From an uncultured Bacteroidales bacterium (lineage in GTDB: Bacteria > Bacteroidota > Bacteroidia > Bacteroidales > FEN-979), in assembly GCA_903885595.1 (NCBI GenBank), contig CAISJJ010000373.1, forward strand, positions 1 through 64,000: 64,000 bases of DNA. Reading direction: 5' to 3'. The position numbers and the translations under genes were made by a program. Positions 39,007 to 59,393 of this stretch are shown piece by piece. The notes under the pieces are model-generated. The model searched no databases and was not told where the DNA came from. It worked only from the letters and a program-made list of their open reading frames with translations. The first letter of the stretch is position 1. Each line of letters starts with the position of its first letter.

Positions 39007-39097
39007 CCATGAAATTGTCATAAGTACAACGTACATGCAAACCGTGAATGATAATTTATTGCTATTCCATATGGCCTGAAAAAATAAAAATTAACAT
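39007..39097 (+). repeat. Palindromic ATG-ended element, copy 1
   Basis: First of five copies of a family defined here. It has an imperfect hairpin of about 70 nt with core ACAACGTACATGCAAACCG, and an A-rich tail that ends TTAACAT directly before the ATG at 39098. The arms are degenerate, with left ATTGTCATAA and right TTATTGCTAT. It is joined head-to-tail to copy 2 with an 88-base period. Core and left arm are most like copy 5. Confidence 0.8.
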
Positions 39098-39191
39098 ATG
39101 AAATATCCATAAGCACAACGTTCAAGCAAACCGTGAATGTCAATTTATGGATATTCCATGTGACCACTAAAAAACAAATTATTAACAAATG
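39095..39191 (+). repeat. Palindromic ATG-ended element, copy 2 (leader of cytochrome b561 gene)
   Basis: The best-formed copy. Left arm CATATGAAATATCCATAA pairs with right arm TTATGGATATTCCATGTG (18 bp with two non-Watson-Crick positions). A second, inner stem is possible between ACGTTCA and TGAATGT. The A-rich tail AAAAAACAAATTATTAACAA ends at ATG 39189-39191, which is the start codon of the cytochrome b561 gene. The element therefore forms the whole proximal leader of that gene. Confidence 0.85.
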
Positions 39192-39902
39192 AAAACGTAT
39201 ATCTGGACATTTCCAACACGAGTATTTCACTGGCTATTGGCTTTTTCCTTTGCAGTGGCCTTCTTCCTTGGTGGAGAAGAAGAATTTCTGAATTTGCATT
39301 CAGCATTGGGCATCTTTATTGGCATATTGGTGGTATTCAGGGTTATTCAGGGGTTTACCGGCCCAAAATATACACGGTTCCGCGATTTTCCTGTTTCACC
39401 TGCATCCATAAGACTGTTTATCACAAATATGAAACAAAGTAAAGCCATGCATCCTGGTCACAACCCCCTTGCTTCACTCGTCATGTTTTCGATATTTATA
39501 ATGGCGTTTTTATCGGCCATATCCGGCATGCTCATTTTCGCTTCGGGCGACACCGGTATCTTTGGATTTCGCCTATTGGAGGTATCAGATCCTGAAATAT
39601 TTGAGGAATTTCACGATGTTGTTGTGCATCTTTTTCTTATCCTTGTCGTTGTGCATCTGACTGGCATTATGGCTGATGCTTTGTTTCACAGGGAAAACGG
39701 AACAATATGGTCAATTTTCAGCGGCTACAAGCGAATAGCGGCAGTGCCGGCAACACAAAACAATTTCCAACGAGTATTTTCCATCATGTGGTTTGTAATC
39801 CCGATCATTGTTTTCTTCTATGTTTTGAAGTTTCAGGAAACACCCGTCGGGGAAAAGGAGAACACCGAAAAAGTCAGTGATAACGATAAAGACGAAGATT
39901 AG
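39189..39902 (+). CDS. Cytochrome b561-type di-haem membrane protein
   Basis: A 237-residue membrane protein with four core helices of the cytochrome b561/Ni-Fe-hydrogenase cytochrome b type. Candidate haem ligands are H14 in TRVFHWLLAF, H36 in NLHSALG, and the histidines in EEFHDVVVHLF and VVVHLTGI. The family passes electrons between the quinone pool and a partner oxidoreductase. FRDFPVSPASIRLFI resembles the loop of YodB/CybB-like members. The C-terminus is a charged tail of about 25 residues. The start codon is the terminal ATG of repeat copy 2. A CDF transporter gene begins 2 bases after its stop, so the two are one operon. Confidence 0.9.
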   Translation: MKTYIWTFPTRVFHWLLAFSFAVAFFLGGEEEFLNLHSALGIFIGILVVFRVIQGFTGPKYTRFRDFPVSPASIRLFITNMKQSKAMHPGHNPLASLVMFSIFIMAFLSAISGMLIFASGDTGIFGFRLLEVSDPEIFEEFHDVVVHLFLILVVVHLTGIMADALFHRENGTIWSIFSGYKRIAAVPATQNNFQRVFSIMWFVIPIIVFFYVLKFQETPVGEKENTEKVSDNDKDED

Positions 39903-39904
39903 CC

Positions 39905-40798
39905 ATGATAACCACGATGGAAAGAGAAAAAAAGCGGGTTGCAGGTATTTCAGTGATCGCAGCCTTCTTTCTCACCGGTTTTAAACTGGTGATAGGTTTG
40001 ATTACCGGAAGCCTTGGGTTGCTCTCCGAGGCGCTTCATTCAGGACTCGACCTGGTTGCGGCGCTGATTACCTGGTTCTCGGTGAGAATATCTGATAAAC
40101 CCCCGGATGCAAATCATCATTATGGCCATGGAAAAATCGAAAATTTTTCGGCGCTCATCGAAACGTTTTTACTCTTGATTACCTGTGCCTGGATCATTTT
40201 CGAAGCGATTCACCGTCTGGTCAGTGGTAATACTGAGATTGAAGTGAATGTTTTCAGCTATTTTGTTGTATTGACATCCATCGCAATTGATATTGCCCGG
40301 TCGAGAGCGCTGTATCGCGTGGCCCGCAAATACAACAGCCAGGCCCTTGAAGCTGATGCGCTTCATTTCTCCACCGACATCTGGAGCTCAGCGGTAGTTT
40401 TGCTTGGTCTGATCCTGGCCCAGTTTGGATGGTTCTTTGCCGATTCGGTTGCCGCTCTTGCGGTAGCGTTCATCGTGCTCGGAGTCTCCTGGAAACTGGG
40501 TAAACGTGCTGCAGATGTGTTACTCGACCGCAGTCCTGCACCCCTGGTGGCTCAGCTGACATCGTTACTGAATCAATCAACAGGGATACTACGATATCAT
40601 GACCTCAAAGTGAGAACTGCCGGCGCTGAGAATTTTATTGAGGTGACGATTCACGTGCAGCCCGGACTTACCCTTGAAAAAGCACATTCGATATCTCATC
40701 TGATTGAAAAACAGATCACTGAGGCCATTCCCCGGTCGTTTGTACATGTTCACATCGAACCGGATAAACATCTGCCTGAGCTTTCTGAAAATTCGTAA
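39905..40798 (+). CDS. Cation diffusion facilitator (FieF/CzcD family) transporter
   Basis: A 297-residue proton-coupled exporter of divalent metals such as zinc or iron. Six membrane helices lie in the first 210 residues. The two HxxxD metal-site motifs appear as EALHSGLD in helix 2 and DALHFSTD in helix 5. DANHHYGHGKIENF follows helix 2 as in FieF. The C-terminal ferredoxin-like cytoplasmic domain (about 210-290) has VTIHVQPGLTLEKAH and VHVHIEPD. It starts 2 bases after the cytochrome b561 stop. The metal cannot be fixed from sequence. A Met at residue 5 is an alternative start. Confidence 0.94.
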   Translation: MITTMEREKKRVAGISVIAAFFLTGFKLVIGLITGSLGLLSEALHSGLDLVAALITWFSVRISDKPPDANHHYGHGKIENFSALIETFLLLITCAWIIFEAIHRLVSGNTEIEVNVFSYFVVLTSIAIDIARSRALYRVARKYNSQALEADALHFSTDIWSSAVVLLGLILAQFGWFFADSVAALAVAFIVLGVSWKLGKRAADVLLDRSPAPLVAQLTSLLNQSTGILRYHDLKVRTAGAENFIEVTIHVQPGLTLEKAHSISHLIEKQITEAIPRSFVHVHIEPDKHLPELSENS

Positions 40799-40842
40799 TT
40801 TGTAATAAGTGCGTCAACACATCTAACCAATAACAAAACATT

Positions 40843-41133
40843 ATGAACTGTCCTAAATGTAATATAGTCCTTCTGATGACCGATCGTCAGGGAGTAGAAA
40901 TTGATTATTGCCCGCAATGTCGTGGAATTTGGCTTGACCGCGGCGAACTTGAAAAAATTATCGATCGTTCTGCAGGCATCAACCCTGCCATGGAGCAGGG
41001 CTCAGGTTTCCCACAAATGGGATACAATGATCACCATGATAAACATCATGACCATGATGATCATCAGCGATATGGCGGCGTTTATGGCAACCGGAGGAAA
41101 AAAGGATTTCTGGGAGAACTCTTCGATTTTTAA
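40843..41133 (+). CDS. Small zf-TFIIB-type zinc-binding protein
   Basis: A 96-residue protein whose first 45 residues are a zinc ribbon: CPKC at 3-6 and CPQCRGIWLDRGELEKI from about 23, matching the bacterial zf-TFIIB family. The remainder is unusually rich in histidine (DHHDKHHDHDDHQRYGG), a pattern that can bind extra metal, and ends in KKGFLGELFDF. It lies 44 bases after the CDF transporter gene, so a link to metal handling is reasonable. Function of the family is not established. Confidence 0.88.
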   Translation: MNCPKCNIVLLMTDRQGVEIDYCPQCRGIWLDRGELEKIIDRSAGINPAMEQGSGFPQMGYNDHHDKHHDHDDHQRYGGVYGNRRKKGFLGELFDF

Positions 41134-41272
41134 CCGGCCCTGCTTAGCGTTTTTTCTTGTGCCTGAAATGAGAGTGGTTTTGGACGACAGGCTAAATCTG
41201 AAGCCTGGAAGCCTGGGCGATCGCTTGTGATATTTTTTCATGCCATGATCGTTTCGTTTTCAACCGGATAGT

Positions 41273-41280
41273 TATCTTTG
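41273..41280 (+). promoter_or_regulatory. -7 box for lumazine-binding-like gene
   Basis: TATCTTTG, an exact TAnnTTTG match, 25 bases before the ATG at 41306. A TTTCG about 20 bases upstream is a weak -33 candidate. Confidence 0.45.
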
Positions 41281-41305
41281 TGAATTATTCCAAAACTCCC
41301 GGATC

Positions 41306-41764
41306 ATGAAAAAAGTTTTTATGCTGATGCTTGTTTCAGCCATCAGTTTAATTGCCGCTGCCCAGCAGAAGGCAACAAACGATTCAGACATTGCCCTGAT
41401 CAAGAATATAATACAAATAGCATATGTCGAAGGTCTTCAGAATGAAGGTGATACTGTTAAGATAAACAGTGGTTTTCATCCCGGCTTTGAAATGCTGATG
41501 ACAACAAAAGAGGGCGAATTGAAAAAGTATAGTTTAACATTGTGGAAAGAGAAAATTAAGGAGAATCTGGCTTCCGGACAATTGCCCAGGAAGAAGGAGG
41601 ATCGGGTATCCATTAAATTTGTTTTTGTCGATGTAACTGCTAATGCAGCTGTTGCCAAATTCGAATTCTATGTTGGTAAGAAACTTACTTTTATTGATTA
41701 CCAGTGCCTGTACAAATTTCAGAATGGCTGGAAAATCGTGAGCAAGATATTCTCCAAGGTTTAA
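41306..41764 (+). CDS. Secreted NTF2-like / putative lumazine-binding protein
   Basis: A 152-residue protein with a signal peptide (MKKVFMLMLVSAISLIAAAQ) and a single SnoaL/NTF2-like cone fold. Recognisable elements are IIQIAYVEGLQNEGD, the FHPGFEMLM segment, VFVDVTANAAVAKFEF, and the final FQNGWKIVSKIF strand. This is the pattern of the Bacteroidota putative lumazine-binding family. Members are periplasmic and their ligands are unknown; the name is historical. It has its own promoter. The following TerC gene is 75 bases away. Confidence 0.86.
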   Translation: MKKVFMLMLVSAISLIAAAQQKATNDSDIALIKNIIQIAYVEGLQNEGDTVKINSGFHPGFEMLMTTKEGELKKYSLTLWKEKIKENLASGQLPRKKEDRVSIKFVFVDVTANAAVAKFEFYVGKKLTFIDYQCLYKFQNGWKIVSKIFSKV

Positions 41765-41839
41765 TCATCCGCATCGGCACTTAGTTAATCTGTCAGCCTG
41801 CGTGCCGGAATAATAACCCTGCGTTAAAGATAAATTGTC

Positions 41840-42601
41840 ATGACCTACGAAATTATCATATCACTTTTAACACTTGTTGGATTAGAAATTGTCCTGGGGA
41901 TCGATAATGTCATATTTATTTCGATTCTCGCCCATAAACTGCCTCAGAACCAGCAGAAAAAGGCACGCAGGGTTGGTCTCCTCCTCGCTATGTTGCTCCG
42001 CCTGGTATTATTGTCGGTCGTTTCACTCATCATGCAGCTGAAATATGATTTATTTACCGTTTTTGGACATGGCATATCTGGAAAAGATATGATTCTTATC
42101 CTGGGAGGGTTGTTTTTAATGTATAAAAGCACCGTTGAAATTTACCATAAAATGGAAGGGGCAGATGGAGATCAGACAAGCAAATTCAAGGCAACAGGGT
42201 TTGTGCAGGTTATTATCCAGATACTGATCATGGATATGGTTTTTTCTGTTGATTCGATCATTACGGCCATCGGGATGGTAAAGGTGATCTGGGTCATGTA
42301 TGCTGCCATCATCATTTCCGTTGGAATCATGTTATTTGCAGCCGAGCCGATCAGCAAGTTTGTTAACAACCATCCGGCATTTAAAATACTGGCGCTTTCC
42401 TTTCTGCTCCTCATCGGTTTTGCCCTTGTCAGCGAGGGATTTGGCATCGAAATACCCAAGGGATATATCTATTTCTCGATGGCTTTCTCCCTGCTTGTTG
42501 ATGTCCTCCAGATGCGTATGAATAAGAAACATTCATTACCTGTTCCAACACATGAGCATTACCGGGAAGAGGAAAAGAAACTGGAGAAGGGTATTCTCTA
42601 A
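41840..42601 (+). CDS. TerC-family integral membrane protein
   Basis: A 253-residue protein with seven predicted helices and the two acidic membrane motifs of TerC: GLEIVLGIDNVIF near the start and MVFSVDSIITAIGM in the middle. TerC proteins are linked to tellurite resistance and, in other bacteria, to manganese loading of exported enzymes. A cytoplasmic loop (about 100-120) and a basic tail fit the family. No ter operon partners are present, so a metal-homeostasis role is more likely than tellurite resistance. The PhzF-like gene follows after 28 bases and may be co-transcribed. Confidence 0.92.
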   Translation: MTYEIIISLLTLVGLEIVLGIDNVIFISILAHKLPQNQQKKARRVGLLLAMLLRLVLLSVVSLIMQLKYDLFTVFGHGISGKDMILILGGLFLMYKSTVEIYHKMEGADGDQTSKFKATGFVQVIIQILIMDMVFSVDSIITAIGMVKVIWVMYAAIIISVGIMLFAAEPISKFVNNHPAFKILALSFLLLIGFALVSEGFGIEIPKGYIYFSMAFSLLVDVLQMRMNKKHSLPVPTHEHYREEEKKLEKGIL

Positions 42602-42629
42602 CCGTTATCATTAAAAAAGGAGAGATACA

Positions 42630-43418
42630 ATGCAAAAAATTAAGATTTTCCAGGTCGATGCTTTTGCCAAAGACCTGTTTAAGGGTAACCCGGCTGCTGT
42701 GTGCCTGCTTGAACAATGGTTAACCGATGAACGCATGCAGTCAATCGCGTTTGAAAATAATTTATCAGAAACAGCATTTGTCACCCGGAAAGCTGATTAT
42801 TTCGAAATAAGGTGGTTCACCCCGACTGTTGAGGTCGATTTGTGCGGACATGCAACCCTGGCATCGGCCTGTGTGATTTTCAACCATACTGATTTCCTGG
42901 CGGAGGAGATCATTTTTCTTTCTCCCCGCAGCGGTGAATTACGCGTAAGGAAGGACGGTAAGAAATTTTACCTGGATTTTCCGGCTGATGAATTTGCGCA
43001 ATGTAATCATCTCCCTGAAATCACAAAAGGAATTGGCGTGAAACCGCTGGAATTGTACCGGGGCAAAACAGATTATATGGCTGTCCTGGCATCTGAAGAG
43101 GATGTCAGAAAAATTCAGCCCGATTTTGATGCGATTTCAAAACTAGATGCGCGGGGACTGATTGTAACCGCGCCAGGCAACAATGTTGATTTTGTGTCCA
43201 GGTTCTTTGGGCCACAGTCGGGTGTAAATGAAGATCCGGTGACCGGATCGGCACATACCACCCTGGCCCCCTACTGGTCAGCTAAGCTCGGCAAGCCGGA
43301 GCTTGATGCAAAGCAGATTTCCGCCCGTGGCGGTGATCTTCACTGCCGGGATGCAGGATCAAGGATTTTTATCGGGGGGGAGGCGCAGCTGTATTTAACC
43401 GGGGAAATCCATGTGTGA
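42630..43418 (+). CDS. PhzF-family isomerase
   Basis: A 262-residue diaminopimelate-epimerase-fold enzyme. FQVDAFAKDLFKGNPAAVC (8-26) and the catalytic glutamate in NNLSETAFV (about 44-52) define the family. FTPTVEVDLCGHATLASA and DPVTGSAHTTLAPYW complete it. Phenazine genes are absent, so this is one of the many PhzF paralogues with an unknown small-molecule substrate. A GGAG precedes the ATG by about 10 bases. The last two sense codons and the stop fall in the left arm of repeat copy 3. Confidence 0.92.
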   Translation: MQKIKIFQVDAFAKDLFKGNPAAVCLLEQWLTDERMQSIAFENNLSETAFVTRKADYFEIRWFTPTVEVDLCGHATLASACVIFNHTDFLAEEIIFLSPRSGELRVRKDGKKFYLDFPADEFAQCNHLPEITKGIGVKPLELYRGKTDYMAVLASEEDVRKIQPDFDAISKLDARGLIVTAPGNNVDFVSRFFGPQSGVNEDPVTGSAHTTLAPYWSAKLGKPELDAKQISARGGDLHCRDAGSRIFIGGEAQLYLTGEIHV

Positions 43419-43508
43419 ATTATGCATAACCACAATGTTCATGTAAGCCGTGATTGTTAATTGATGGATATTCCATGTGACCATTAAAAAACAAATTGTT
43501 AACACATG
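43410..43508 (+). repeat. Palindromic ATG-ended element, copy 3
   Basis: The right arm TGATGGATATTCCATGTG (43462-43479) and tail TTAAAAAACAAATTGTTAAC are very close to copy 2. The core is diverged (CACAATGTTCATGTAAGCCG) and the left arm is degenerate. The left arm contains the final codons and TGA of the PhzF gene. The tail ends at ATG 43506-43508, which opens a 21-residue frame that overlaps the next gene. Confidence 0.75.
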
Positions 43509-43571
43509 AACCAACTCTTACTAACTTTTCTTTCCATTCTTATATCACAATTCGCCATCAATGACTTATGA
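43506..43571 (+). CDS. Possible 21-residue leader ORF
   Basis: A tiny frame that begins at the terminal ATG of repeat copy 3 and reads MNQLLLTFLSILISQFAINDL, mostly hydrophobic. Its TGA overlaps the first codons of the 76-residue orphan at 43561 by 11 bases, a layout that would allow coupled translation. There is no independent evidence of expression. It may simply be a chance product of the repeat joining downstream sequence. Confidence 0.2.
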   Translation: MNQLLLTFLSILISQFAINDL

Positions 43572-43791
43572 GGTACTGGTCAGGGCCTGCGTCATCAGAT
43601 ACCATCAGGGACAAAACCCGGATGAAAGTCGATTGAAATACATGATTTCTGACGAAAAAGCCAGGGAATTCCTTTGGATTGAAGAACTTGTCAATGCATT
43701 GTCTGTTTGTGAAAAGAACCGCGATCAATATCCGGAATTAAGGGATTTCATGCCTGAAATTGTGAAGGTCCAGAACGGTTTTTTACCTTAG
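43561..43791 (+). CDS. Small orphan protein
   Basis: A 76-residue open frame with a sensible composition for a soluble helical protein: charged residues throughout, a REFLWIEELVNALSVCEKN amphipathic helix in the middle, and no signal peptide. I recognise no family. It lies just after repeat copy 3 and 214 bases before the metallophosphatase gene. Start assignment rests on the first ATG. Coding status is moderate. Confidence 0.45.
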   Translation: MTYEVLVRACVIRYHQGQNPDESRLKYMISDEKAREFLWIEELVNALSVCEKNRDQYPELRDFMPEIVKVQNGFLP

Positions 43792-43903
43792 ACATAAAGG
43801 AAAGCCATATGATTACCCGGTTTCACGGCATGTTTTTATTCTAATTTTGACAATCGTTAATTCCGGATGTAAAATGATTTCTATTGAAATGATCATCCTG
43901 GGC

Positions 43904-43934
43904 TTTGCAGCCTTTTATGAAATTCCTATTTTTG
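43904..43934 (+). promoter_or_regulatory. -33/-7 promoter for metallophosphatase operon
   Basis: TTTG (43904-43907), 19 bases, then TATTTTTG (43927-43934): an exact match to the Bacteroidota promoter layout. The ATG at 44006 is 71 bases further, leaving a leader of about 65 bases. A second TAATTTTG at 43842-43849 is less well placed. Confidence 0.6.
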
Positions 43935-44005
43935 TTCTTTGACGTTTTTTGCTGACTGTGCAATAACAGCAAAAAAACATCACTTTACTGTTTAATCCTT
44001 TGTTT

Positions 44006-44932
44006 ATGAATAAAATATCAAGATCTGTTCTTACATGTCTGGTTTATAGTTTGATGGCTGTTTTGCCTGATTCCGGTTTTGCCCAGGGGAAACCAGGCAA
44101 AAGTACGGACCCTTTCAGTTTTGTTTTCCTGACTGATATTCACCTCACAACTGAGCGGAATGCACAACAGGGGTTCAGGCAGGCGATAGATGCAGTTAAT
44201 GCACTGAATCCCGATTTCGTGATAACCGGCGGCGACCTGATCATGGATGCACTGGCGCAGAAATACAATAAAGCTGATACATTATACAATATTTACCAGG
44301 CTGCTATCAGGGCTTTCAGAATGCCTGTTTACAATACCATGGGGAATCATGAAATTTATGGATTTTATAAAGAAAGCGGGGCCGACCCGAAAAATCCGGA
44401 ATATGGAGAAAAAATGTTCGAGAAACGTCTTGGAAAATCATATTATACCTTCAATCATAAAGGTTGGAAGTTCATGGTTCTGAATTCAGTTGAAAGTTCC
44501 GGGACGAGCGGTTACATCGGTATGATTGATTCTGCCCAGGTGGAATGGATAAGGGATGAACTCAGTAAAACAGATAGATCCACCCCAATCGTTCTGACAT
44601 CGCATATACCCTTCATCACTGCCCATAACCAGAAATATTATGGGAGCACCACCCAAAATGATTCTGCCTCAGTGGTTGTCAATTCAAAAGAGGTGATTGC
44701 TTTTTTCAAAAGACATAACCTGAAACTTGTCCTGCAGGGCCATATGCATACAGTTGAGGACATTTATATCGATGGAATCCATTTCCTCACGGGGGGCGCG
44801 GTATCTGCCAGCTGGTGGGAAGGGCCCTGCTTTGGTCACGAGGAGGGGTTTATGCTCCTGCATGTCGAAGGAGATCAGTTCACATGGAATTATGTGGATT
44901 ATGGCTGGGACCCAAAGTCAAAGGGAAATTAG
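44006..44932 (+). CDS. Secreted calcineurin-like metallophosphatase
   Basis: A 308-residue exported phosphatase from the ATG at 44006; the TTG at 44000 is less likely. After a signal peptide (MNKISRSVLTCLVYSLMAV to GFAQ) the two-metal motifs appear in order: FLTDIHLT, GGDLIMDA, NTMGNHEIYG, LTSHIPF and LQGHMHTVED. The C-terminal part has GGAVSASWWEGPCFG, typical of Bacteroidota members of this group. The substrate may be a phosphodiester or phosphomonoester. It has its own strong promoter, and the MutS-like gene follows after 30 bases, so the two form a probable operon. Confidence 0.9.
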   Translation: MNKISRSVLTCLVYSLMAVLPDSGFAQGKPGKSTDPFSFVFLTDIHLTTERNAQQGFRQAIDAVNALNPDFVITGGDLIMDALAQKYNKADTLYNIYQAAIRAFRMPVYNTMGNHEIYGFYKESGADPKNPEYGEKMFEKRLGKSYYTFNHKGWKFMVLNSVESSGTSGYIGMIDSAQVEWIRDELSKTDRSTPIVLTSHIPFITAHNQKYYGSTTQNDSASVVVNSKEVIAFFKRHNLKLVLQGHMHTVEDIYIDGIHFLTGGAVSASWWEGPCFGHEEGFMLLHVEGDQFTWNYVDYGWDPKSKGN

Positions 44933-44962
44933 CATTTCGTCATTTAATAACGCATACTAACT

Positions 44963-46840
44963 ATGAGCGAGCCTGTTTCCTTTTACAAACAGCGGATACT
45001 TCACTACAAGGAGAAGGTGGGTTTTTTACGCCGCAAACTTCGGTTCATCCCCTGGTCGCGCCTGGTACTGTTCGCGATGGCTATTGCGGGTGTAGTGCTT
45101 TTCACAACAAACGGAAATCCCATCTCTCTAATCGGCTCGATAGCTGTGTTTGTTGTTTTTTTAACAGCCGGGTGGTACGATTTCCGAATCAAGCGTAAAA
45201 TCACAAATCTTGAGATTCTTGAAAAGATAAACCTGCAGGAGATTGCAGCGATCGGGGGCAATTATGCAGCATTTGATCCGGGGAATGAATTTCAGGATGA
45301 GGATCATCCATACACCCATGATCTCGATGTTTTTGGTCCCGGATCATTGTTTCAATACGTAAACCGGACCTCAACTATTTATGGAAGGAGGAGGCTTGCC
45401 GAATATTTCATTCACTCCTTTCAGTTCAGGGATGAAATAGTAGCAAGACAACAGGCTGTAAGGGAATTGGCCGGAAAGATTGAACTCAGGCAACAGCTTC
45501 AAAGCATATTCTATGAGAAGATTACATCTGAGCAAGACCTAATTGCGCTCACAGCATGGCTTAATTCAGAAAAGCGGCCAACCCTGTATCAGCCCGGGGC
45601 AGAAAAAAACACCGAATTTATGGGCGAAGAGGGGTCTGATGCCGGCAACAAGAGATATTCGCGGACCATCCTGAAAGCGATGGTTTATATTGGACCTGCT
45701 ATTACAATCGCCTGTCTCATCGCCGCCATAGGCGGGATTCTTCCGGCACAAGTCCCCGTTTTCCTGGTTCTCCTGCAACTGCTGGTCGTTTTCGGATATG
45801 TCCGGCAGACCCAGAAAGTGCATCAGGCGATTTCATCACAGGTGATCATCCTCCGTAAATACGCAGAAGCCCTGTCGCTGATCGAGTCGACTATGTTTGA
45901 TGAGAAGTTCAACAGGAAGCTGCAAAACGAACTAATATATCATGAAACAGATTCTCCCGGTCATGTTATAAGGAAATTTTCGAATCTCCTGAAATGGATG
46001 GATTCAAACCTGAATATCGTTGTTTCGGTGATTCTGAACGGGCTGTTCATGTTCAATATCCACCTGCTGATCGCCATCGACGCCTGGCGCCTTCAATACC
46101 GCGAAATGATTCCGAAATGGTTTGACGTACTGGCAGAGTTTGATGCACTTTCAAGCCTTGCGGTACTCTCATTTAATAATCCTGACTTTATTTTCCCCGA
46201 ACAGGCAGCAGGGGAATTTACCCTTATTGCCGTTGCGATCGGTCATCCGCTGATTCCCAGGGACCAATGTGTGAAAAATGATTTTGAGATACGGGGATGG
46301 AATCAATTTTCTATCATTACCGGGGCCAATATGTCGGGCAAGAGTACCTTCCTCCGTACGATCGGAACAAACTATCTCCTGGCCATGATGGGAGCACCTG
46401 TATTTGCTCTTAAATTCATCTTCTGCCCGGTCGAAATCCACAGCAGCATCAGAACAAACGATTCGCTCGTCAAACGCGAATCCTATTTCTATGCAGAACT
46501 AAAGCGGTTGAAAGAGATCATTGATCAACTCGAGCAAGGCCGGCAGAAGTTTATTTTGCTTGACGAAATTCTGAAAGGAACGAATTCCTCTGATAAACAA
46601 ACCGGGTCGATTGCACTGATAAAACAGCTAATGAAATATAATGTGGCGGGGATGTTTGCAACACATGACCTTGCGCTCGGAGACCTGATCAACACCTATC
46701 CGGATCATATCATGAATCATTGTTTTGAGATCATGATTGACAAGGACCGGATGGAAATCGACTATAAACTCCGCCCGGGAGTATGCAGAAATCTCAATGC
46801 CTCCTATTTGATGAAAAAAATGGGAATCCTGATAGGTTAG
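44963..46840 (+). CDS. Membrane-anchored MutS-homologue ATPase
   Basis: A 625-residue protein whose C-terminal 200 residues form a MutS domain V ATPase: Walker A GANMSGKST at about 453-461, IRTNDSLVKRESYFYAELKR, Walker B FILLDEILKGTNSSD, and ATHDLALGDL. The mismatch-recognition domains I and II are absent. Instead there are hydrophobic segments near 33-70 (LVLFAMAIAGVVLF, IAVFVVFLTAGW) and at about 235-275, so it should be bound to the membrane. The middle resembles the MutS core and clamp. This membrane MutS group is widespread in Bacteroidota, and its function is not known; classical mismatch repair is unlikely. It is probably co-transcribed with the metallophosphatase. Confidence 0.88.
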   Translation: MSEPVSFYKQRILHYKEKVGFLRRKLRFIPWSRLVLFAMAIAGVVLFTTNGNPISLIGSIAVFVVFLTAGWYDFRIKRKITNLEILEKINLQEIAAIGGNYAAFDPGNEFQDEDHPYTHDLDVFGPGSLFQYVNRTSTIYGRRRLAEYFIHSFQFRDEIVARQQAVRELAGKIELRQQLQSIFYEKITSEQDLIALTAWLNSEKRPTLYQPGAEKNTEFMGEEGSDAGNKRYSRTILKAMVYIGPAITIACLIAAIGGILPAQVPVFLVLLQLLVVFGYVRQTQKVHQAISSQVIILRKYAEALSLIESTMFDEKFNRKLQNELIYHETDSPGHVIRKFSNLLKWMDSNLNIVVSVILNGLFMFNIHLLIAIDAWRLQYREMIPKWFDVLAEFDALSSLAVLSFNNPDFIFPEQAAGEFTLIAVAIGHPLIPRDQCVKNDFEIRGWNQFSIITGANMSGKSTFLRTIGTNYLLAMMGAPVFALKFIFCPVEIHSSIRTNDSLVKRESYFYAELKRLKEIIDQLEQGRQKFILLDEILKGTNSSDKQTGSIALIKQLMKYNVAGMFATHDLALGDLINTYPDHIMNHCFEIMIDKDRMEIDYKLRPGVCRNLNASYLMKKMGILIG

Positions 46841-47699: not shown

Positions 47700-47722
47700 G
47701 TAAAATTTAAAAAACAAAGCCT

Positions 47723-48555: not shown

Positions 48556-48585
48556 CTACTTTTACGGATCTGATTCCCTTACATC

Positions 48586-49848
48586 ATGTTAGTTGATTTC
48601 CTTAAGGACCTTCGCAGGCGTGACCACAAACCCCGGTTTGGCGGGCTTGAAATATTAAAATATATAGGACCAGGCTTACTTGTCACGGTTGGCTTTATCG
48701 ATCCGGGCAACTGGGCTTCAAATATTGCTGCCGGATCGGAATTTGGTTATGAATTGCTTTGGATGGTCACCCTTTCGACCATTATGCTGATCATTCTGCA
48801 GCATAACGTCGCCCATCTTGGAATCGCCACTGGTTTATGTCTTTCTGAGGCTGCCAACATGCATACACCCCGATGGATTTCAAGAAGTGTTTTGATTACG
48901 GCCATGGGTGCCTCCATCTCAACCTCTCTTGCTGAAATACTTGGGGCCGCTGTAGCGCTCGACATGCTTTTCGATATTCCGATCCCGGCCGGTGCCATCA
49001 TGGCTTTCGTGTTTGTAATCATTATGCTATTTACGAATTCCTATCATAAGATCGAAAAATTCATCATTGCATTCGTATCCATCATCGGATTGTCATTTTT
49101 ATATGAACTTACCTTGGTTGATATCAACTGGGTTCAAGCTGGGATAGGCTGGGTGAAACCCAGTATTCCGCAAGGTTCTATGATTATTGTGATGAGTGTG
49201 CTGGGTGCCGTGGTCATGCCACATAATCTGTTTCTTCATTCCGAGATTATTCAGAGCCGTCAGTGGAACCTTGAAGACGAAAAAGTGATAAAACGCCAAA
49301 TGGATTATGAACTCTTTGACACACTTTTTTCCATGGTGATAGGTTGGGCTATCAACAGCGCAATTATCCTGCTTGCTGCCACCGCATTTTTCACCAACCA
49401 TATACCGGTGAGTGAATTACAGCAGGCCGAAGGTATTCTTAAACCCCTCCTGGGAAATAATGCAGCTGTTATTTTTGGTGTGGCGCTGCTTTTTGCCGGA
49501 ATTGCGTCAACAATCACCTCTGGCATGGCAGGCGGGAGTATCTTTGCCGGCCTTTTCGGAGAGCCATATGATATCCGCGACAGCCACTCGCGGCTTGGTG
49601 TGCTCATTTCATTGGTAATTGCCCTGCTCATTATTTTCCTCATCAGCAATCCCTACCAGGGATTGATCATCTCCCAAATGGTGCTGAGCATTCAATTGCC
49701 ATTAACCATCTTCCTGCAGATTTACCTGACCTCATCCAAAAAGGTTATGGGTAAATATGTGAATACAACCTCCACCAAGGTTATCCTTCTAATGGTTGGC
49801 GCGATTGTGGCCTTTCTGAATGTAAAATTGCTGATTAGTTTCTTTTGA
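48586..49848 (+). CDS. mntH: Nramp-family divalent metal importer
   Basis: A 420-residue, roughly eleven-helix symporter that imports Mn2+ or Fe2+ with protons. The metal-site motifs are intact: GFIDPGNWASN in helix 1 and VVMPHNLFLHSEI in helix 6. YIGPGLLVTVG and GMAGGSIFAG are also typical. It follows the aquaporin terminator, so it needs its own promoter; TACTTTTA at about 48557 is a weak -7 candidate. The protein ends 180 bases before the GT39 gene, after which an octamer array begins. Symbol assigned by family; iron versus manganese is not resolved. Confidence 0.92.
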   Translation: MLVDFLKDLRRRDHKPRFGGLEILKYIGPGLLVTVGFIDPGNWASNIAAGSEFGYELLWMVTLSTIMLIILQHNVAHLGIATGLCLSEAANMHTPRWISRSVLITAMGASISTSLAEILGAAVALDMLFDIPIPAGAIMAFVFVIIMLFTNSYHKIEKFIIAFVSIIGLSFLYELTLVDINWVQAGIGWVKPSIPQGSMIIVMSVLGAVVMPHNLFLHSEIIQSRQWNLEDEKVIKRQMDYELFDTLFSMVIGWAINSAIILLAATAFFTNHIPVSELQQAEGILKPLLGNNAAVIFGVALLFAGIASTITSGMAGGSIFAGLFGEPYDIRDSHSRLGVLISLVIALLIIFLISNPYQGLIISQMVLSIQLPLTIFLQIYLTSSKKVMGKYVNTTSTKVILLMVGAIVAFLNVKLLISFF

Positions 49849-49883
49849 AAATCTTTACCTTTGGCGCCGGAAATGAGGAGTAG

Positions 49884-49963
49884 GTTGGGAAGTTGGTAAG
49901 CTGGTAAGTTGGTAAGTTGGTAAGTTGGTAAGTTGGTAAGATGGTAAGTTGGTAAGTTGGTAA
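49884..49963 (+). repeat. Octamer tandem array, (GTTGGTAA)x10
   Basis: Ten head-to-tail copies of the octamer GTTGGTAA, with single-base variants in unit 1 (GTTGGGAA), unit 3 (GCTGGTAA) and unit 8 (GATGGTAA). It lies in the spacer between the Nramp and GT39 genes. Two further units of the same family occur at 59394-59409, next to the dioxygenase start codon. Confidence 0.9.
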
Positions 49964-50032
49964 AAAGAAACGGGGAACAATTTAGCTGGATTTTAGATTT
50001 CAAATTTTTTAAATTCATTTTTACAGTAAACC

Positions 50033-51799
50033 ATGCCTTCGAACCGTAAGATATACTTGGCTCTTTTCATACTGCTGGCTTTATCTGCTGTGGTCAGGGG
50101 TTTTATTGCGGGTTTTATTGAATTGGGCAATGACGAAGTTTACTACTGGACTTATGCAAAATTTCCCGCACTCAGTCACTTTGATCATCCACCCATGGTG
50201 GGCCTTGTGATCCAGTTTTTTACATTAAATCTCTACCTTGACAGTGAATTTTTTCTGCGCTTAGCCTCTGTGGTATTGGGAACCATGAGTACAGGGATGA
50301 TGTTTCTGATAGGCAGGCACATTAAAAATCCACTGACTGGATTTTATGCCGCTCTGTTATTCACGACATCTTTCTATGGCTTTATCCTGAGCGGAGTTTT
50401 CATTTTACCCGATTCGCCCCAGGTTTTCTTCTGGCTGGTTACACTTTTTTTCCTTTTGAAATCGCTGCCCGACCGGGAAATGACGAACGAAAGCCGGAAT
50501 TTCCTTTTTTATGCAGGGGTCACAGCCGGACTTGCGTTGTTGTCGAAGTACCATTCAGTTTTTCTGGTTGCCGGGACATTTATGTATCTTTTGCTTTATA
50601 ACCGAAACTGGTTCAGGGCCAAAGAAACGTATGCTGCTTTTTTCATTTTTATTCTCCTTTTTTTTCCGGTTGTTTTTTGGAATATTGAAAATGATTTTAT
50701 CAGTTTTACATTTCATGAAAACAGGGTTGGGATTACCGAATCCGGATTTCAGCCACAATATTTTCTGACCGAGATTGCCGGGCAGTTTTTCTATAATAAC
50801 CCTGTGAATGTGGTGATCATCATTGTTGCGATGATTGCGCTTTTCCGCCGGAAGCAGTTCCTGGATGTATCGTATCGACGCATTATTTTATGGACCAGTG
50901 TGCCTCTGTTTGCAATTTTTCTTTCCTTGGCCCTGTTTCGCAGCACCCTGCCGCATTGGACAGGTCCGGCTTATCTTGGTTTTATCCTGGTAGCTGCAGC
51001 CTGGCTTGCTGAACCAAAGCGAAATACTGATTCCAGGCGAAGACTCGTTCCCTGGCCGGTTGCCCTTTCCCTTGGTTTTCTGCTTTTAATTATAGTTATA
51101 GCCATCGGACAGATTCGCTATGGCTGGATTCCACTCAAAAGGGATAAGGTCGATGATGTCTCACTCGATATGTATGGATGGCATCAGCTTGGCGATAAAT
51201 TTGCACTGATGGTAAAATGGGATGAAGAGCATTTTCTTATCGACAAAGGATCACCTATACTGACATTCAGGTGGTTTCCGGCCGCCAATTTTGACTATTA
51301 CCTGGGCAGGAATATCAATAAGCCCGTGTATGCCCTGGGAGAGTTGGAGCGGATTCATAAATATTTCTGGATTAATCAGGTGCGGGGAAATTTTAAAAAA
51401 GGAAGCGATGCATATTATATTGCACTGAGCGATGATTATGAAGACCCAATTGCTTTATACGGACATCTGTTTGAAATGGTACTTCCGTCCGACACCTTGT
51501 TTATCACCCGCGGCCGTGATACCGTTCGCATGGCCTTTATATTCAGGCTGGTCGATCTGAAGCAGGATCTGATCTTCAACCGGGAAAAGAATCCCGACCC
51601 GAAGAATGCCGAAAAGGCGGATACCCTTTCCTATTTCCTGAATCAGATCAGGTCTGACCGGCAGTACCTCGACCTCCTTGAGAAACGGTCGGTCAGGCTA
51701 AAAATCTCCCTCGATGACCTGATTAGGGAGGAGGCCATAAAAATGTATCAGGATTCGAAGCTAAAACTTGCGATGCCTGATACGAACCATTGGAAATAA
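50033..51799 (+). CDS. GT39-family membrane glycosyltransferase (ArnT/PMT-like)
   Basis: A 588-residue GT-C enzyme with about ten to twelve helices in the first 370 residues and a soluble C-terminal part. The catalytic first loop has GNDEVYYWTYAKFPALSHFD followed by HPPMVG, which contains the Asp-Glu pair and the HPP motif of the GT39/ArnT group. Such enzymes use polyprenyl-phosphate sugars to modify lipid A or proteins on the periplasmic side. The C-terminal section (about 480-588) is charged and lacks helices. It stands alone behind the octamer array. Substrate is unknown. Confidence 0.88.
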   Translation: MPSNRKIYLALFILLALSAVVRGFIAGFIELGNDEVYYWTYAKFPALSHFDHPPMVGLVIQFFTLNLYLDSEFFLRLASVVLGTMSTGMMFLIGRHIKNPLTGFYAALLFTTSFYGFILSGVFILPDSPQVFFWLVTLFFLLKSLPDREMTNESRNFLFYAGVTAGLALLSKYHSVFLVAGTFMYLLLYNRNWFRAKETYAAFFIFILLFFPVVFWNIENDFISFTFHENRVGITESGFQPQYFLTEIAGQFFYNNPVNVVIIIVAMIALFRRKQFLDVSYRRIILWTSVPLFAIFLSLALFRSTLPHWTGPAYLGFILVAAAWLAEPKRNTDSRRRLVPWPVALSLGFLLLIIVIAIGQIRYGWIPLKRDKVDDVSLDMYGWHQLGDKFALMVKWDEEHFLIDKGSPILTFRWFPAANFDYYLGRNINKPVYALGELERIHKYFWINQVRGNFKKGSDAYYIALSDDYEDPIALYGHLFEMVLPSDTLFITRGRDTVRMAFIFRLVDLKQDLIFNREKNPDPKNAEKADTLSYFLNQIRSDRQYLDLLEKRSVRLKISLDDLIREEAIKMYQDSKLKLAMPDTNHWK

Positions 51800-51864
51800 T
51801 TAACTGATATTTTTCAGATCACATAATGACAGGGTAACAATCTCACGTAAAACTTGATAAATCA

Positions 51865-51899
51865 TCACTTGTCATTTGTCACTTGTCATTTGTCACTTC
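51865..51899 (+). repeat. Heptamer tandem array at 3' end of fumC
   Basis: Five heptamers alternating TCACTTG and TCATTTG, that is, 2.5 copies of a 14-base unit. The array runs into the fumC stop codon (51898-51900) and so lies directly downstream of that minus-strand gene. Confidence 0.75.
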
Positions 51900-53295
51900 A
51901 TTTCGGCCCCACCATTTTCTTCGGGTCCACGGCACGGTTGAAATCCTCTTCGGAAATCAATCCCGACTCCATAGCAGCCTGCCTGAGGGTTTTATGTTCC
52001 TGGTGTGCCTTTTTGGCAATTTTTGCTGAATTATCATATCCTATGATCGGATTCAGCGCTGTAACCAGCATGAGGGAATTTTCAAGGTTTTTATTAATAG
52101 CCGCCATATTAGGCTCAATTCCGAGCGCACAGTTATCGTTGAATGAAACACAGGCATCACCAAGTAAACGTGCCGACATCAGGAGATTGGAGATCATCAG
52201 GGGTTTGAAAACATTCAGTTGGAAGTGACCGCTTATGCCGCCAATATTGATGGCCACATCGTTGCCGAGCACCTGGGCGCACACCATGGTCATAGCTTCG
52301 GGCTGGGTGGGATTCACCTTGCCGGGCATGATGCTGGAGCCGGGTTCATTTTCAGGGAGTCTGAGCTCACCGATGCCGCAACGCGGACCAGAGGCCAGCA
52401 AACGAATGTTGGAGGCAATGTGCATGAGGCTGACGGCCAGTGTTTTCAAAGCGCCTGATGTTTCAACCATCGCATCATGAGCCGATAGTGATTCAAATTT
52501 ATTCTCAGCCGTAATAAAAGGCAAGCCTGTTAGTCCGGCAATTTTCTCAGCTACCAGCACATCATAACCTTTGGGTGCATTTAAGCCTGTACCAACGGCC
52601 GTACCGCCAAGTGCCAGTTCCGAGAGATGCGGAAGGGTATTCTTCAACGCTTTCAACCCGTGTTCAAGCTGGGAAACATAGCCTGAAAACTCCTGACCCA
52701 GTGTTAGTGGTGTTGCATCCATGAGGTGGGTGCGGCCGGTTTTTACGATCTCTTTGAATTCTTCAGATTTCCTGGCAAAGGTGCCTTTAAGCAATTCCAC
52801 CCCGGGGATGGTGGTTTCCGTCACCATTTTAAAGGCGGCAATGCTCATGGCTGCCGGGAATGTATCGTTTGACGATTGGGATTTATTTACATCATCGTTG
52901 GGATGGATCACAGTTTTTCCCTCTCCTCCGAGCACGCCGCCATGCAGCACATGGGCACGGTTTGCAATCACCTCATTGAGATTCATGTTGGTTTGGGTTC
53001 CCGAACCAGTTTGCCAGATCACCAACGGAAACTGACTGTCATGCTGACCATCCAGGATTTCATCACAAACCTTCACTATCAGTTCCATCTTTTCTTTGGG
53101 CAGCACCCCGAGATCGGCATTCACCATCGCAGCGGCTTTCTTGAGGATGGCCATTCCCCGGATCATCTCTTTTGGCATCGAACCGGGCTCTCCGATCTTG
53201 AAATTGGTGAGCGAACGTTGTGTCTGGGCTCCCCAGTATTTGTCCATGTCAACCTCGATGGGTCCCATGGTGTCTTTTTCGATACGTGTTTTCAT
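51898..53295 (-). CDS. fumC: Class II fumarate hydratase
   Basis: Interconverts fumarate and L-malate in the TCA cycle. The 465-residue length is standard for the iron-independent tetrameric class. Key motifs are [27 protein letters not shown] with the catalytic histidine, and the superfamily signature [16 protein letters not shown] with the catalytic serine. The start codon at 53295 coincides with the terminal ATG of repeat copy 4, which forms its leader, and its stop touches a heptamer array. No other TCA gene is adjacent, so it is probably monocistronic. Identification is very secure. Confidence 0.97.
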
Positions 53296-53387
53296 GTGTT
53301 TATAATTTGTTTTTTAATGGTCACATGGAATACCCATAAATTAACATTCACGGTTGGCATGGACGTTGTCCTTATGGTATTTCATGG
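53293..53387 (-). repeat. Palindromic ATG-ended element, copy 4 (leader of fumC)
   Basis: Inverted relative to the other copies. On the minus strand the left arm CATGAAATACCATAA (from 53385) pairs with the right arm TTATGGGTATTCCATGTG; both arms differ from copy 2 in ways that mostly keep pairing. The core is ACAACGTCCATGCCAACCG. The tail TTAAAAAACAAATTATAAAC ends with the ATG 53295-53293, the fumC start codon. Confidence 0.85.
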
Positions 53388-53416
53388 CTATTATGTTGTT
53401 GGTTTGTTCCCGCAAA

Positions 53417-53761
53417 TTATTTCAGCAAAGGTTCAATATTTTCAACAGGATCGCCGATCACAGCCTTGTATTTGCCCTCCACAACCGGACGCTGCATGAG
53501 TTTTGGGTTTTGAAGAATGATCTTGATCAGCTCATGATCTTCGAAGTTTTTTCCCTTGAGGTTTTGTTTGAAATAGTCCTCCTGGGTCCGCAAAAGATCG
53601 GTTGGTTTTTTATTCAGCTTGATCAGCAGCTTCTCCATCTCCTTTTCCGTCATGGAATTCTTAAGATATTCAACAATTTCAAAGACAACGCCTGATTGCT
53701 GGATGAACTGCAATCCGGCACGGGATTTTTTACAAGACGGATTATGGTAGATTTTTAACAT
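53417..53761 (-). CDS. ArsC/Spx-family thioredoxin-fold protein
   Basis: A 114-residue protein of the glutaredoxin-type arsenate reductase (ArsC) family. It begins IYHNPSCKKSR with C10, the position of the catalytic cysteine in the family, and continues with LLRTQEDYFKQ and a RPVVEGKYKAVIG segment that matches the conserved RPxx region. Many chromosomal members with no ars operon, such as YffB, do not reduce arsenate. No arsenic genes are nearby, so the annotation should stay at family level. Its ATG directly abuts a heptamer array at 53763-53804. Confidence 0.88.
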   Translation of the reverse strand: MLKIYHNPSCKKSRAGLQFIQQSGVVFEIVEYLKNSMTEKEMEKLLIKLNKKPTDLLRTQEDYFKQNLKGKNFEDHELIKIILQNPKLMQRPVVEGKYKAVIGDPVENIEPLLK

Positions 53762-53762
53762 A

Positions 53763-53804
53763 TTTACGATATACGATATACGATATACGATTTACGATTT
53801 ACGA
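53763..53804 (+). repeat. Heptamer tandem array before arsC-like gene
   Basis: Six heptamers in the order TTTACGA, TATACGA three times, then TTTACGA twice. The array starts one base upstream of the ArsC-like ATG, so it forms the immediate leader of that minus-strand gene. Confidence 0.85.
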
Positions 53805-53813
53805 TTTTGATTT

Positions 53814-53845
53814 CGCTACCTCACTACCTCGCTACCTCGCTATTT
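53814..53845 (+). repeat. Octamer tandem array after prfB
   Basis: Four octamers: CGCTACCT, CACTACCT, CGCTACCT and the decayed CGCTATTT. The array lies one base beyond the prfB stop codon, on the downstream side of that minus-strand gene. Confidence 0.75.
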
Positions 53846-53846
53846 C

Positions 53847-54936
53847 TCACGCATTCCCATACTCCATCAGGTACGATTTTATGAAAGCCGTCAGGTCTCC
53901 ATCCAGAACTGCCTGGGTGTCGGATGTTTCGTGGCTGGTACGCAGATCTTTCACCATCTTGTAAGGATGCAGCACATAACTGCGGATCTGGCTACCCCAT
54001 TCGATCTTTTTCTTGCCGCTTTCGATCACTGCAATCTTCTCACGCTGTTTGCGGAGTTCAATTTCGTACAACTGGGACTTCAGCAGCTTCAGCGCCTTTT
54101 CACGGTTTTGACCTTGTGACCGGGTTTCCTGGCATTCAATGATAATTCCTGATGGTTCGTGTTTCAGTCGTACTGCCGTTTCAACCTTGTTCACATTTTG
54201 TCCGCCGGGACCACTGCTACGGAAAGTATCCCAGCTGATTTCGGCCGGGTTGATATCGATCACGATGTCATCGTTTATGATCGGATAAACATAAACGGAA
54301 GCAAACGAAGTATGGCGCTTGTGATTTGAATCAAAAGGTGAAAGCCGCACCAGCCGGTGAACACCGTTCTCCCCTTTGAGGTAACCATAGGCATAATCAC
54401 CATCAAATTCAAGGGTTACCGATTTAATCCCGGCCACATCCCCCTCCTGGAAGTCGACTTCGCTTATCTTGAAACGGCTCCGTTCACCATAGCGGATATA
54501 CATGCGCATGAGCATCTGGGCCCAATCCTGGCTCTCCGTACCGCCGGCTCCGGAATTAATTTGAACAATAGCACCCAATTTATCCTCTTCGCCACTTAGC
54601 ATATTCCTGAATTCAAGCTCTTCAATAAGTGTCAGCGAATCAGCATAGTGCTTGTCAAGATCAGCCTCGGTTCCTTCACCCTGGAGGTAAAATTCCCACA
54701 TGATCATCAGGTCATCGTGGCTGGAGAGGGCCTGTAAAAAAGCATCCGTCCACAATTTTTTATCGCGGATGGCGCGCAATGCAGTTTCAGCGGCTTTTGG
54801 ATTATTCCAGAAATCGGGAGCTTGCGATAGTTCTTCTTCTTCTTTTATTTGGGAAAGTTTCTTGTCGATGTCAAAGGTACCTCCTCAAGATGTCGAGCCT
54901 TGTCTTCAGGTCTCTCAGCTGGTCTTGTGCTATCAT
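53847..54936 (-). CDS. prfB: Peptide chain release factor 2, expressed by programmed +1 frameshift
   Basis: Class-I release factor for UGA and UAA. The gene starts at ATG 54936; after 21 codons the frame hits TGA (54873-54871) in the classic slippery context CTT-TGA-C, with AGGAGG three bases before the CTT. A +1 shift continues into the main frame, giving a 362-residue protein. Downstream motifs confirm identity: the recognition tripeptide SPF (199-201) and the catalytic [11 protein letters not shown] with GGQ at 244-246, both at E. coli-like positions. Low RF2 slows termination at the UGA and raises frameshifting, an autoregulatory loop known in many bacteria. The start is one base after the recX stop, so they are co-transcribed. 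Confidence 0.96.
54870..54891 (-). promoter_or_regulatory. prfB programmed frameshift site
   Basis: On the minus strand this contains AGGAGG, TAC, CTT, TGA, C in sequence. AGGAGG acts as the internal Shine-Dalgarno element and CTT-TGA-C as the slippery stop. The spacing of three bases between them is the same as in E. coli prfB. Confidence 0.92.
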
Positions 54937-54937
54937 G

Positions 54938-55426
54938 TCAGATTTTTAGTTCTTTTATTATATTTAGGGTCAGGTCAAATTCAAATCCTTTGCCTGTTAC
55001 AAAAGTGATAATTTTTTCGCGGATGTTCAAGCTTTTTCCCGGGTTTATTTCCGACTTTTTTTTGAGGATCAATTCACGGATGGTTTTATGGTAATCCGTT
55101 TCGCTGATCTCAAGCAAAGCCTCCCGGATCAGTTTTTCAGATAAACCGCGGCCTTTGAGTTCGTATTGCAATCGGAGCCTGCCCCATTTGTTGATGCGGA
55201 ATTTCCCGCGAACAAAAAGCCTGGCAAACCGTTCGTCGTCAATGAAACGTTCCTCTTTCAGCTTTTTCATGACCTGGCCGATCTTTTCCCGGGGAACCTT
55301 CCAGTCGGTCAGCTTTTGCTCCACCTCCCGGGTACACCTTTCCTGGTAAGCACAGTAGCGGCTAATGCGGTCAAAGATCTGAGCAGGATCATTGTTTGAT
55401 AAACCGTCCGTTCCAGTTTTTTCCAT
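54938..55426 (-). CDS. recX: Regulatory protein RecX
   Basis: A 162-residue RecX, a small helical protein that binds RecA filaments and limits their activity. I start it at ATG 55426 (MEKTGTDG). An upstream in-frame ATG at 55474 lies inside repeat copy 5 and its codons match the repeat, not the family. Conserved parts are RISRYCAYQERCTREVEQKL, FIDDERFARLFVRGKFRINKWG and LKGRGLSEKLIREAL, the tandem three-helix repeats of RecX. It stops one base before the prfB ATG. No recA gene is in the window. Confidence 0.92.
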   Translation of the reverse strand: MEKTGTDGLSNNDPAQIFDRISRYCAYQERCTREVEQKLTDWKVPREKIGQVMKKLKEERFIDDERFARLFVRGKFRINKWGRLRLQYELKGRGLSEKLIREALLEISETDYHKTIRELILKKKSEINPGKSLNIREKIITFVTGKGFEFDLTLNIIKELKI

Positions 55427-55443
55427 GGATTTATTCAGTATAA

Positions 55444-55537
55444 CATATGAAATTGCCATAAGTACAACGTCCATGCAAACCGTGAATGATAATATGGGTA
55501 TTCCATGTGACCGCTTTGTAAAATAAATATTAACATG
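55444..55537 (+). repeat. Palindromic ATG-ended element, copy 5
   Basis: Left arm CATATGAAATTGCCATAA, core ACAACGTCCATGCAAACCG, right arm TATGGGTATTCCATGTG, and an A/T-rich tail ending TTAAC before ATG 55535-55537. That ATG opens a frame which collides with the DUF4838 gene and is not a convincing start. The element lies 17 bases upstream of the divergent recX start. Left arm and core are close to copy 1. Confidence 0.8.
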
Positions 55538-59391: not shown

Positions 59392-59393
59392 AA

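Follow-up and report, generated by a model that had tools for sequence, protein, structure and literature searches.

The DNA analysed here is a 64,000-nt window of genome G000, from an uncultured Bacteroidales bacterium (positions count from the window start), and the subject is a palindromic element of about 90 nt that occurs there in five copies, each with an A-rich tail leading into an ATG. Rereading the sequence at all five places bears out the copies and the layout that an original prediction had described, and the five copies are members of a large mobile family that is real and widespread. The unit opens with a left ATGAA and continues through a hairpin (hairpin I), its foot, TTCCATNTGACC, and a linker rich in A to a CAN'ATGAA at its end. 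A second helix (helix II), which had escaped the original prediction, joins the foot hexamer CATNTG to the terminal CAN'ATG and takes in the start codon. The features of the window are as follows, with bit scores from a covariance model built from 91 aligned copies of the family:

39009-39097, plus strand: copy 1, upstream member of a two-copy array (91.5 bits)
39098-39188, plus strand: copy 2, stopping exactly at the start codon at 39189 (107.1 bits)
39098-39159, plus strand: hairpin I of copy 2 (ATGAA...CAT), from the family alignment; fold z -5.0 as top-strand RNA
39157-39162, plus strand: foot hexamer CATGTG of copy 2, the proposed guide, pairing with 39186-39191
39186-39191, plus strand: terminal CAN'ATG of copy 2, start codon included, the other side of helix II
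43415-43505, plus strand: copy 3 (88.0 bits)
53296-53385, minus strand: copy 4, stopping exactly at the fumC start codon (53295, minus) (101.8 bits)
55447-55534, plus strand: copy 5, with terminal ATGGT in place of ATGAA and no clear gene at its ATG (70.7 bits)
38498-38586, plus strand: decayed sixth copy (nhmmer E 2.5e-4; covariance model E 0.014; sequence inspected)
59404-59483, minus strand: doubtful remnant (nhmmer E 2.1e-5 but covariance model E 0.98)

The final ATGAA of copy 1 doubles as the opening ATGAA of copy 2, and its foot CATATG pairs with its terminal CATATG; copy 2, whose foot hexamer mispairs at the N/N' position only (G against A), leads into a 237-aa cytochrome-b561-like open reading frame (ORF). 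Copy 3 opens with GTGAA, not ATGAA, and carries near its start a TGA that terminates a PhzF-like ORF (42630-43418); downstream of it lies only a 21-codon frame. The earlier statement that the tail always stops at ATG can be sharpened to ATGAA for copies 1-4, copy 5 terminating in ATGGT, and the idea that this ATG starts a gene holds for copies 2 and 4 and fails for copies 3 and 5, which have no obvious gene at their ends, copy 1 running into copy 2. The claim that the first 39 kb contain no copy does not stand: the decayed sixth copy lies there, ending at an ATG (38582) that opens an ORF. The doubtful remnant has a 40-nt inverted match to copy 5. Copies on opposite strands of the window are complementary (88% over 97 nt and 86% over 86 nt).

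A genome-wide search with the covariance model, of the kind that the original prediction had proposed, yields at least 94 copies in G000 at E<=0.01, far above chance; BLAST with the consensus gives 54 matches at E<=10, some of them partial. Counts are lower bounds throughout, the best 98 candidates per genome having been scored in the family search and the best 14 in the class and phylum samples. Copies were found in 23 of 43 genomes of the same family, with G014 (at least 65) and G025 (at least 37) next to G000 at the top, and the covariance-model search found none in the other 20. Matches at E<=0.001 occur in 44 of 295 genomes of the class sample, G000 counted, and seven genomes besides G000 have matches for 10 to 14 of the 14 scored candidates. 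The phylum sample gives matches in 14 of 296 genomes, again with G000 counted, among them two single-contig genomes, G438 (at least 13 copies) and G523 (at least 9), and one genome from another class, G470 (at least 5). A strict core pattern retrieves 40 stretches from GTDB contigs, all titled as metagenome-assembled genomes of Bacteroidales or Bacteroidetes. The exact core pattern has no match in viral contigs, a G438 copy has none in plasmids, and copy 2 of the window has a single 30-nt match in phages (a Pelagibacter phage), which we take as chance. One stretch of 1509 bp, element copy included, is 99.7% identical between two species (contig C547 of G000 and contig C37 of G008); a little cross-binning or recent transfer is possible.

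The original prediction knew of no named repeat with this structure, which is borne out by Rfam; it returns no match at the gathering threshold in the window and none at E<=1 on 20 class-wide loci. The search found many copies beyond those of the window, covariation among them and no named repeat, and the literature searched holds no description of the anatomy, which is new to us.

The arms of hairpin I comprise an outer part, ATGAAATNNCCATAA / TTATGGNNATTCCAT, and an inner part around GTTCATGC / CCGTGAAT; the linker is mostly 21-24 nt long, and the right arm ends about 30 nt short of the right border. The pentamer at the model end is ATGAA in 106 of the 110 matches that reach it, a count to be read with the model's own preference for ATGAA. 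Across 91 copies, 84% of hairpin I cells are paired, vs. at most 42% when the arms are slid against each other, and the strongest covariation, at columns 8-56, comprises CG in 52 copies, UA in 16, GC in 15 and AU in 1. Most other pairs vary little, and on two of five measures, double-change pairs and pair types, the copies do no better than shuffles: 90 and 89 of 500, respectively, score as high. Class-wide, where the copies analysed are the best-scoring ones, the arms differ widely yet match themselves: duplexes of a copy's own arms have a mean of -8.3 kcal/mol vs. -5.1 kcal/mol for swapped arms (45 of 49 copies; the foot was not found in the other 4). The covariation at columns 8-56 and these divergent, self-complementary arms uphold the earlier suggestion that the hairpin itself matters. 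The five window copies alone made a thin case for it, and it became convincing once the wider family was added; folded singly against shuffles, only copy 2 is clearly more stable (its z on the bottom strand is -2.1), copies 3 and 4 having z of -0.9 to -1.7 and copies 1 and 5 showing nothing.

In helix II, N of CATNTG and N', the base preceding the final ATG, are complementary in 76 of 90 near copies (5000 shuffles: mean 46, maximum 61) and in 44 of 48 class-wide copies (5000 shuffles: mean 15, maximum 28). The base before the left ATG has no tie to N (21/82 near, 13/46 class-wide), and the guide base showed no link to the native base that precedes the target. In tests on 87 near copies and 45 of the 49 class-wide copies, all six pairs are Watson-Crick in 72/87 and 37/45, respectively, and an A.C mismatch, which is a G.T pair on the other strand, occupies foot position 4 in 84/87 and 41/45. 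We conclude that helix II is very probably real. The foot CAT can thus bind either the left ATG, at the base of hairpin I, or the right ATG. A four-codon frame at the left ATG (MKYP* or MKCP*) was considered as a leader peptide and rejected: many class-wide copies do not keep it.

That the copies are insertions, a point absent from the original prediction, follows from the orthologous sites in relatives, which are empty. Comparison of occupied and empty sites shows that the native leader and the gene are intact and that about 90 nt plus a second ATGAA have been added exactly before the start codon. The fumC start is readable in 18 relatives, 17 of them empty and one, G009, doubtful; in relatives that share the upstream gene, the distance from its stop to the fumC ATG is about that from its stop to the left ATGAA in G000. 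In nine relatives, the sites of metF and asd are empty in 9/9 each, and that of mce in 8/9, G017 being occupied. Orthologues of the b561 gene were found in four of the nine (4/4 empty), and those of the gene at locus L019 in two (2/2 empty); for the genes at L065, L010 and L023, 7 of 9, 6 of 9 and 3 of 8 orthologues found were examined, and all (7/7, 6/6 and 3/3) are empty. This comparison left out fuc, whose start did not align, and the L063 genes. The left neighbour of the metF copy (ctgaatttttaat in G008, ctgaatttttagt in G000) abuts ATGAA directly, and therefore no base was lost. A reverse case is provided by G014, in which a gene resembling those of REP-associated tyrosine transposases (RAYTs; REP, repetitive extragenic palindrome) has a copy at its ATG that 27 other RAYT loci do not have. 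We regard it as virtually certain that the element is a mobile insertion.

The methylmalonyl-CoA epimerase gene, mce (L006, L113, L336), has copies in G000, G014 and G017 and none in eight others; the three may be either inherited or the product of repeated insertion, and copies in our tests are accordingly in part non-independent. In G009 (L099), the 26 nt from the upstream gene's stop to fumC resemble an element tail without a hairpin, and tail-only matches lie likewise at gene starts at L051 and L052.

G438 has two identical copies at separate places, suggesting recent movement, and the family has probably been active recently. Among pairs that are physically adjacent in arrays, the copy lying upstream is in 17 of 17 cases closer to a copy elsewhere than to its neighbour, so the arrays arose from new insertions and not from local duplication. 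They grow when a further copy enters the ATGAA that an older copy or a gene leaves exposed. A different palindromic repeat (CTGTCTGCC...GGCAGGCAG) occurs inside element copies, following a half copy at L209 (G000:C110:27000-31000) and within the hairpin stem of a copy at L048.

To score gene starts we used as proxy an ORF of at least 60 aa opened by the final ATG, excluding array members and contig ends (three terminal copies in the genus and family set). By this proxy the final ATG opens an ORF in 62 of 82 terminal copies of the genus and family (own genome 28/36, relatives 16/18, GTDB loci 18/28). The class-wide figure is 33 of 45, and that for terminal copies of G438, G523 and G470 is 19 of 20 (a count that includes L384 and omits L392, an array member). 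Control ATGAA sites open an ORF in 77 of 319 cases in the window and in 120/553 and 38/165 at other loci (22-24%). The ATG end singled out by the original prediction is thus meaningful: in most cases a gene that was already there starts at it, which is more often than at control sites. Judged by their first residues, many of the targets can be named, presumably as fumarate hydratase, metF, aspartate-semialdehyde dehydrogenase, methylmalonyl-CoA epimerase, gcvT, gcvH, pheT, DAHP synthase, photolyase and UDP-glucose dehydrogenase, which on reading look unrelated to each other. As an exception, one copy, judged by a fused frame, apparently inserted at an ATGAA that is no start codon, close to a gene's 3' end. 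Motif plus survival may account for part of the start-codon excess; the 19/20 in G438, G523 and G470 (best-scoring copies, compared with the all-ATGAA control) suggests an excess beyond these. We give even odds to start codons being favoured beyond motif plus selection.

According to the explanation that we consider best, with a probability of about 0.5, the element, about 90 nt long, is mobile but non-autonomous DNA whose insertion site is ATGAA, in most cases made up of an existing gene's start codon and the two bases after it. In the IS200/IS605 family, cleavage sites are recognised by pairing with a tetranucleotide guide that lies 5' of a hairpin foot, a role that REP tags may share, as far as the consulted parts of two accounts describe it (PMC6006769, PMC8266576). 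By analogy, the foot would act as a guide, finding the target and the two ends of the element through base pairing, and an HUH enzyme (Y1/TnpAREP-like) acting in trans would move the element as single-stranded DNA. The mobile strand would probably be the template strand of the gene, on which the order would read TTCAT / linker - CAN'ATGGAA - hairpin - TTCAT / (slashes marking the borders), with the guide 5' of the hairpin foot, and on which the conserved A.C foot mismatch would become a G.T pair. Settling on start codons may be possible because the A-rich tail replaces the native leader. This single-strand HUH route is plausible, at slightly less than even odds. A further-reaching reading, in which a phylum-specific class of selfish DNA homes to start codons, its anti-start-codon guide TTCCAT reading ATGAA, the element becoming a leader with its own start region and the same guide braking the translation of dozens of unrelated genes per genome, is conceivable but rather unlikely.

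Several observations weigh against insertion guided in this manner. No enzyme is linked to the element in the loci examined, which cover only part of the genomes: among 60 Y1 loci (about 1.5 kb on each side) there is one strong element match, at L188, about 1.1 kb from the gene, with weak matches at L290 and L296, and the element forms the ends of none of the Y1 loci examined; among 30 RAYT-profile loci the element occurs in one; and among 189 loci scanned a Y1-type gene is present at L141 and L150 only. A RAYT-like clade (alignment A4) is missing at E<=0.001 from G025, which has at least 37 copies; at E<1e-20 it occurs in 13 of 45 element-bearing genomes vs. 5 of 35 others, too little to decide. 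The strand comparison is weak: of the untied copies folded with DNA parameters, 32 of 44 class-wide but only 45 of 78 near ones favour the template strand, and folding near copies with RNA parameters gives the top strand the advantage, 49 to 37. The REP guide GTAG is absent from the element, and the conserved linker exceeds what a guide would need. The excess at start codons in G000 itself is moderate (28/36), in that window ATGAA sites with a noncoding 20th base upstream open an ORF in 18 of 42 cases. At the doubtful G009 fumC site there is an 11-bit tail match (E 1e-4), whose upstream half overlies the end of the neighbouring gene and which is either a remnant or chance. Finally, a conventional transposase with a 5-bp duplication would equally leave ATGAA at both ends, and the empty sites fit a target plus element end or a 5-bp duplication alike, both being ATGAA.

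The last point leads to the possibility that the element is an ordinary miniature inverted-repeat transposable element (MITE) whose cut-and-paste transposase duplicates 5 bp and has a preference for ATGAA, with start codons simply where insertions survive. Clean insertions flanked by ATGAA on both sides, the 18/42 of the noncoding-upstream control and the copy seemingly in a non-start ATGAA all fit this. However, the inverted repeat reaches the end on one side only, about 30 nt lying beyond the right arm; the repeated pentamer is ATGAA in nearly every match that reaches the model end (subject to the model's preference); the N/N' pairing would have no role; and 19 of 20 terminal copies in G438, G523 and G470 lie on ORF starts. 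We consider a MITE origin unlikely. Very slightly less unlikely is a mobile RNA leader, in which the selected unit is the transcript: helix II would hide the start codon, hairpin I would compete for the same CAT, and each insertion would put its gene under a translational switch, copies being kept by useful control, whatever moves them. The usual position at a start codon, in sense, the switch-like layout in which CAT pairs with either ATG, the linker sequence largely conserved across families and the occupation of mce in three species are in its favour. Yet the target genes look unrelated, sister species mostly have no insertion at the nine genes examined, Rfam offers no relative, and N/N' complementarity is kept equally in array members that touch no gene (16/18) and in terminal copies (63/73).

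Two further possibilities carry far less weight. An attC-like cassette, on which a tyrosine recombinase would act as folded single strands, could explain the imperfect hairpin and the head-to-tail arrays. However, attC boxes have the form RYYYAAC...GTTRRRY, and inspection of alignment A2 by eye shows none at the ends, nor does any gene lie between adjacent array members; we regard this origin as highly improbable. A conserved, non-mobile regulatory leader of a regulon would likewise sit at start codons, but orthologues mostly have no element and tandem copies belong to different subfamilies; the empty sites refute it, and its probability is negligible.

Returning to an element mobilised in trans, analogy makes subclass 2.6 of TnpAREP a natural suspect for the enzyme. 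One candidate, the RAYT-like gene at L141 with a copy at its ATG, was rejected: a close orthologue is present in 17 of 19 genomes of the genus, copy-free ones included, and among the orthologues only that of G014 carries the element. In many members of the genus (L152-L168), the ATG of the RAYT-like gene is immediately preceded by a short palindrome, AAGCAGaaaaaCTGCTT or close to it, possibly for autoregulation by the RAYT-like enzyme. The G000 Y1 genes at L080 and L081 each lie beside their own distinct repeat (GCCTCCAGC... and GGCCCC...GGGGCC); these repeats are other REP-like families in G000. Elsewhere in the window, an array of an 8-bp unit, GTAAGTTG, occupies 49872-49975, just past a 420-aa NRAMP-transporter-like ORF, with a related stretch at 59374-59413.

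Bacteroidota lack Shine-Dalgarno signals. The element tail takes the place of the native leader next to the ATG; it is A-rich (of 85 copies, 99% have A at -11 and 98% have it at -12) and has C at -3 in 85 of 85, and at native empty sites, which are partly orthologues of each other, A is found at -3 in 42 of 65. Adenine at -3 favours initiation in Flavobacterium johnsoniae, where mRNA structure tunes initiation, according to the portion of the source consulted (PMC6847099). Helix II would cover the start codon, and weaker or conditional translation would therefore be expected; together with C at -3, it would probably lower or condition translation. Whether the element affects translation at all we judge, from sequence, to be an evenly balanced question.

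Mobile elements usually avoid or damage gene starts. The element described here settles on start codons in many families of Bacteroidia, with gene and old leader unharmed at the sites compared, so that dozens of genes per genome can share one 5' leader. It lends itself as a natural test of two things: whether a hairpin that carries its own guide can direct transposition to a functional site through base pairing, and how leaders of this sort are tolerated or exploited in Bacteroidota. Gene annotation and expression design in Bacteroidota should account for it.

Several known systems resemble the element. The closest are the REPs of TnpAREP/RAYT subclass 2.6, which, in the part of the review consulted, comes mostly from Bacteroidetes and has on its flanks 'atypical secondary structures' lacking GT[AG]G; REPs in general are believed to depend on domesticated Y1 enzymes for mobilisation in trans (PMC6006769). 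Like these, the element is a hairpin with copies elsewhere in the genome, in Bacteroidetes, and has no GTAG tag; unlike them, it generally does not flank a tnpAREP gene. The descriptions of subclass 2.6 consulted say nothing of insertion at start codons or of a guide helix at the end; the comparison is by description, and identity with some members is possible. The arrays of palindromic repeats recall REPs and bacterial interspersed mosaic elements (BIMEs) of the E. coli type, which differ in having GTAG and in that REPs are 21-65 nt long (same source, as consulted). We know of no start-codon preference of classical REPs or BIMEs. In alignment A2 and in the class-wide copies, inspection finds TTCCATNTGACC at the foot and a conserved GT[AG]G there on neither strand. 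We do not class the element as a REP because of two REP features that we looked for: GT[AG]G was not found, and copies generally do not flank a tnpAREP/RAYT gene.

MITEs with target-site duplications are likewise short and non-autonomous, with the same pentamer at both borders. The element differs from them in that its arms do not lie at both termini, so that terminal inverted repeats of the MITE type are not present, in that what would be the duplication, of fixed length, is almost invariant in sequence (ATGAA), and in having a second helix. Miniature derivatives of IS200/IS605 are known as palindrome-associated transposable elements (PATEs). The element resembles the ends of IS200/IS605 in its subterminal hairpin, in a guide adjacent to the foot that would pair with the cleavage site and possibly in the target kept beside the element; the guide feature is seen as complementarity of CATNTG with CAN'ATG, a putative cleavage site. 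It is unlike IS200/IS605 in that no IS200-like gene locus was found with the element as its ends, in having one hairpin and apparently one guide for both ends, and in a pairing that extends into the element itself (CAN').

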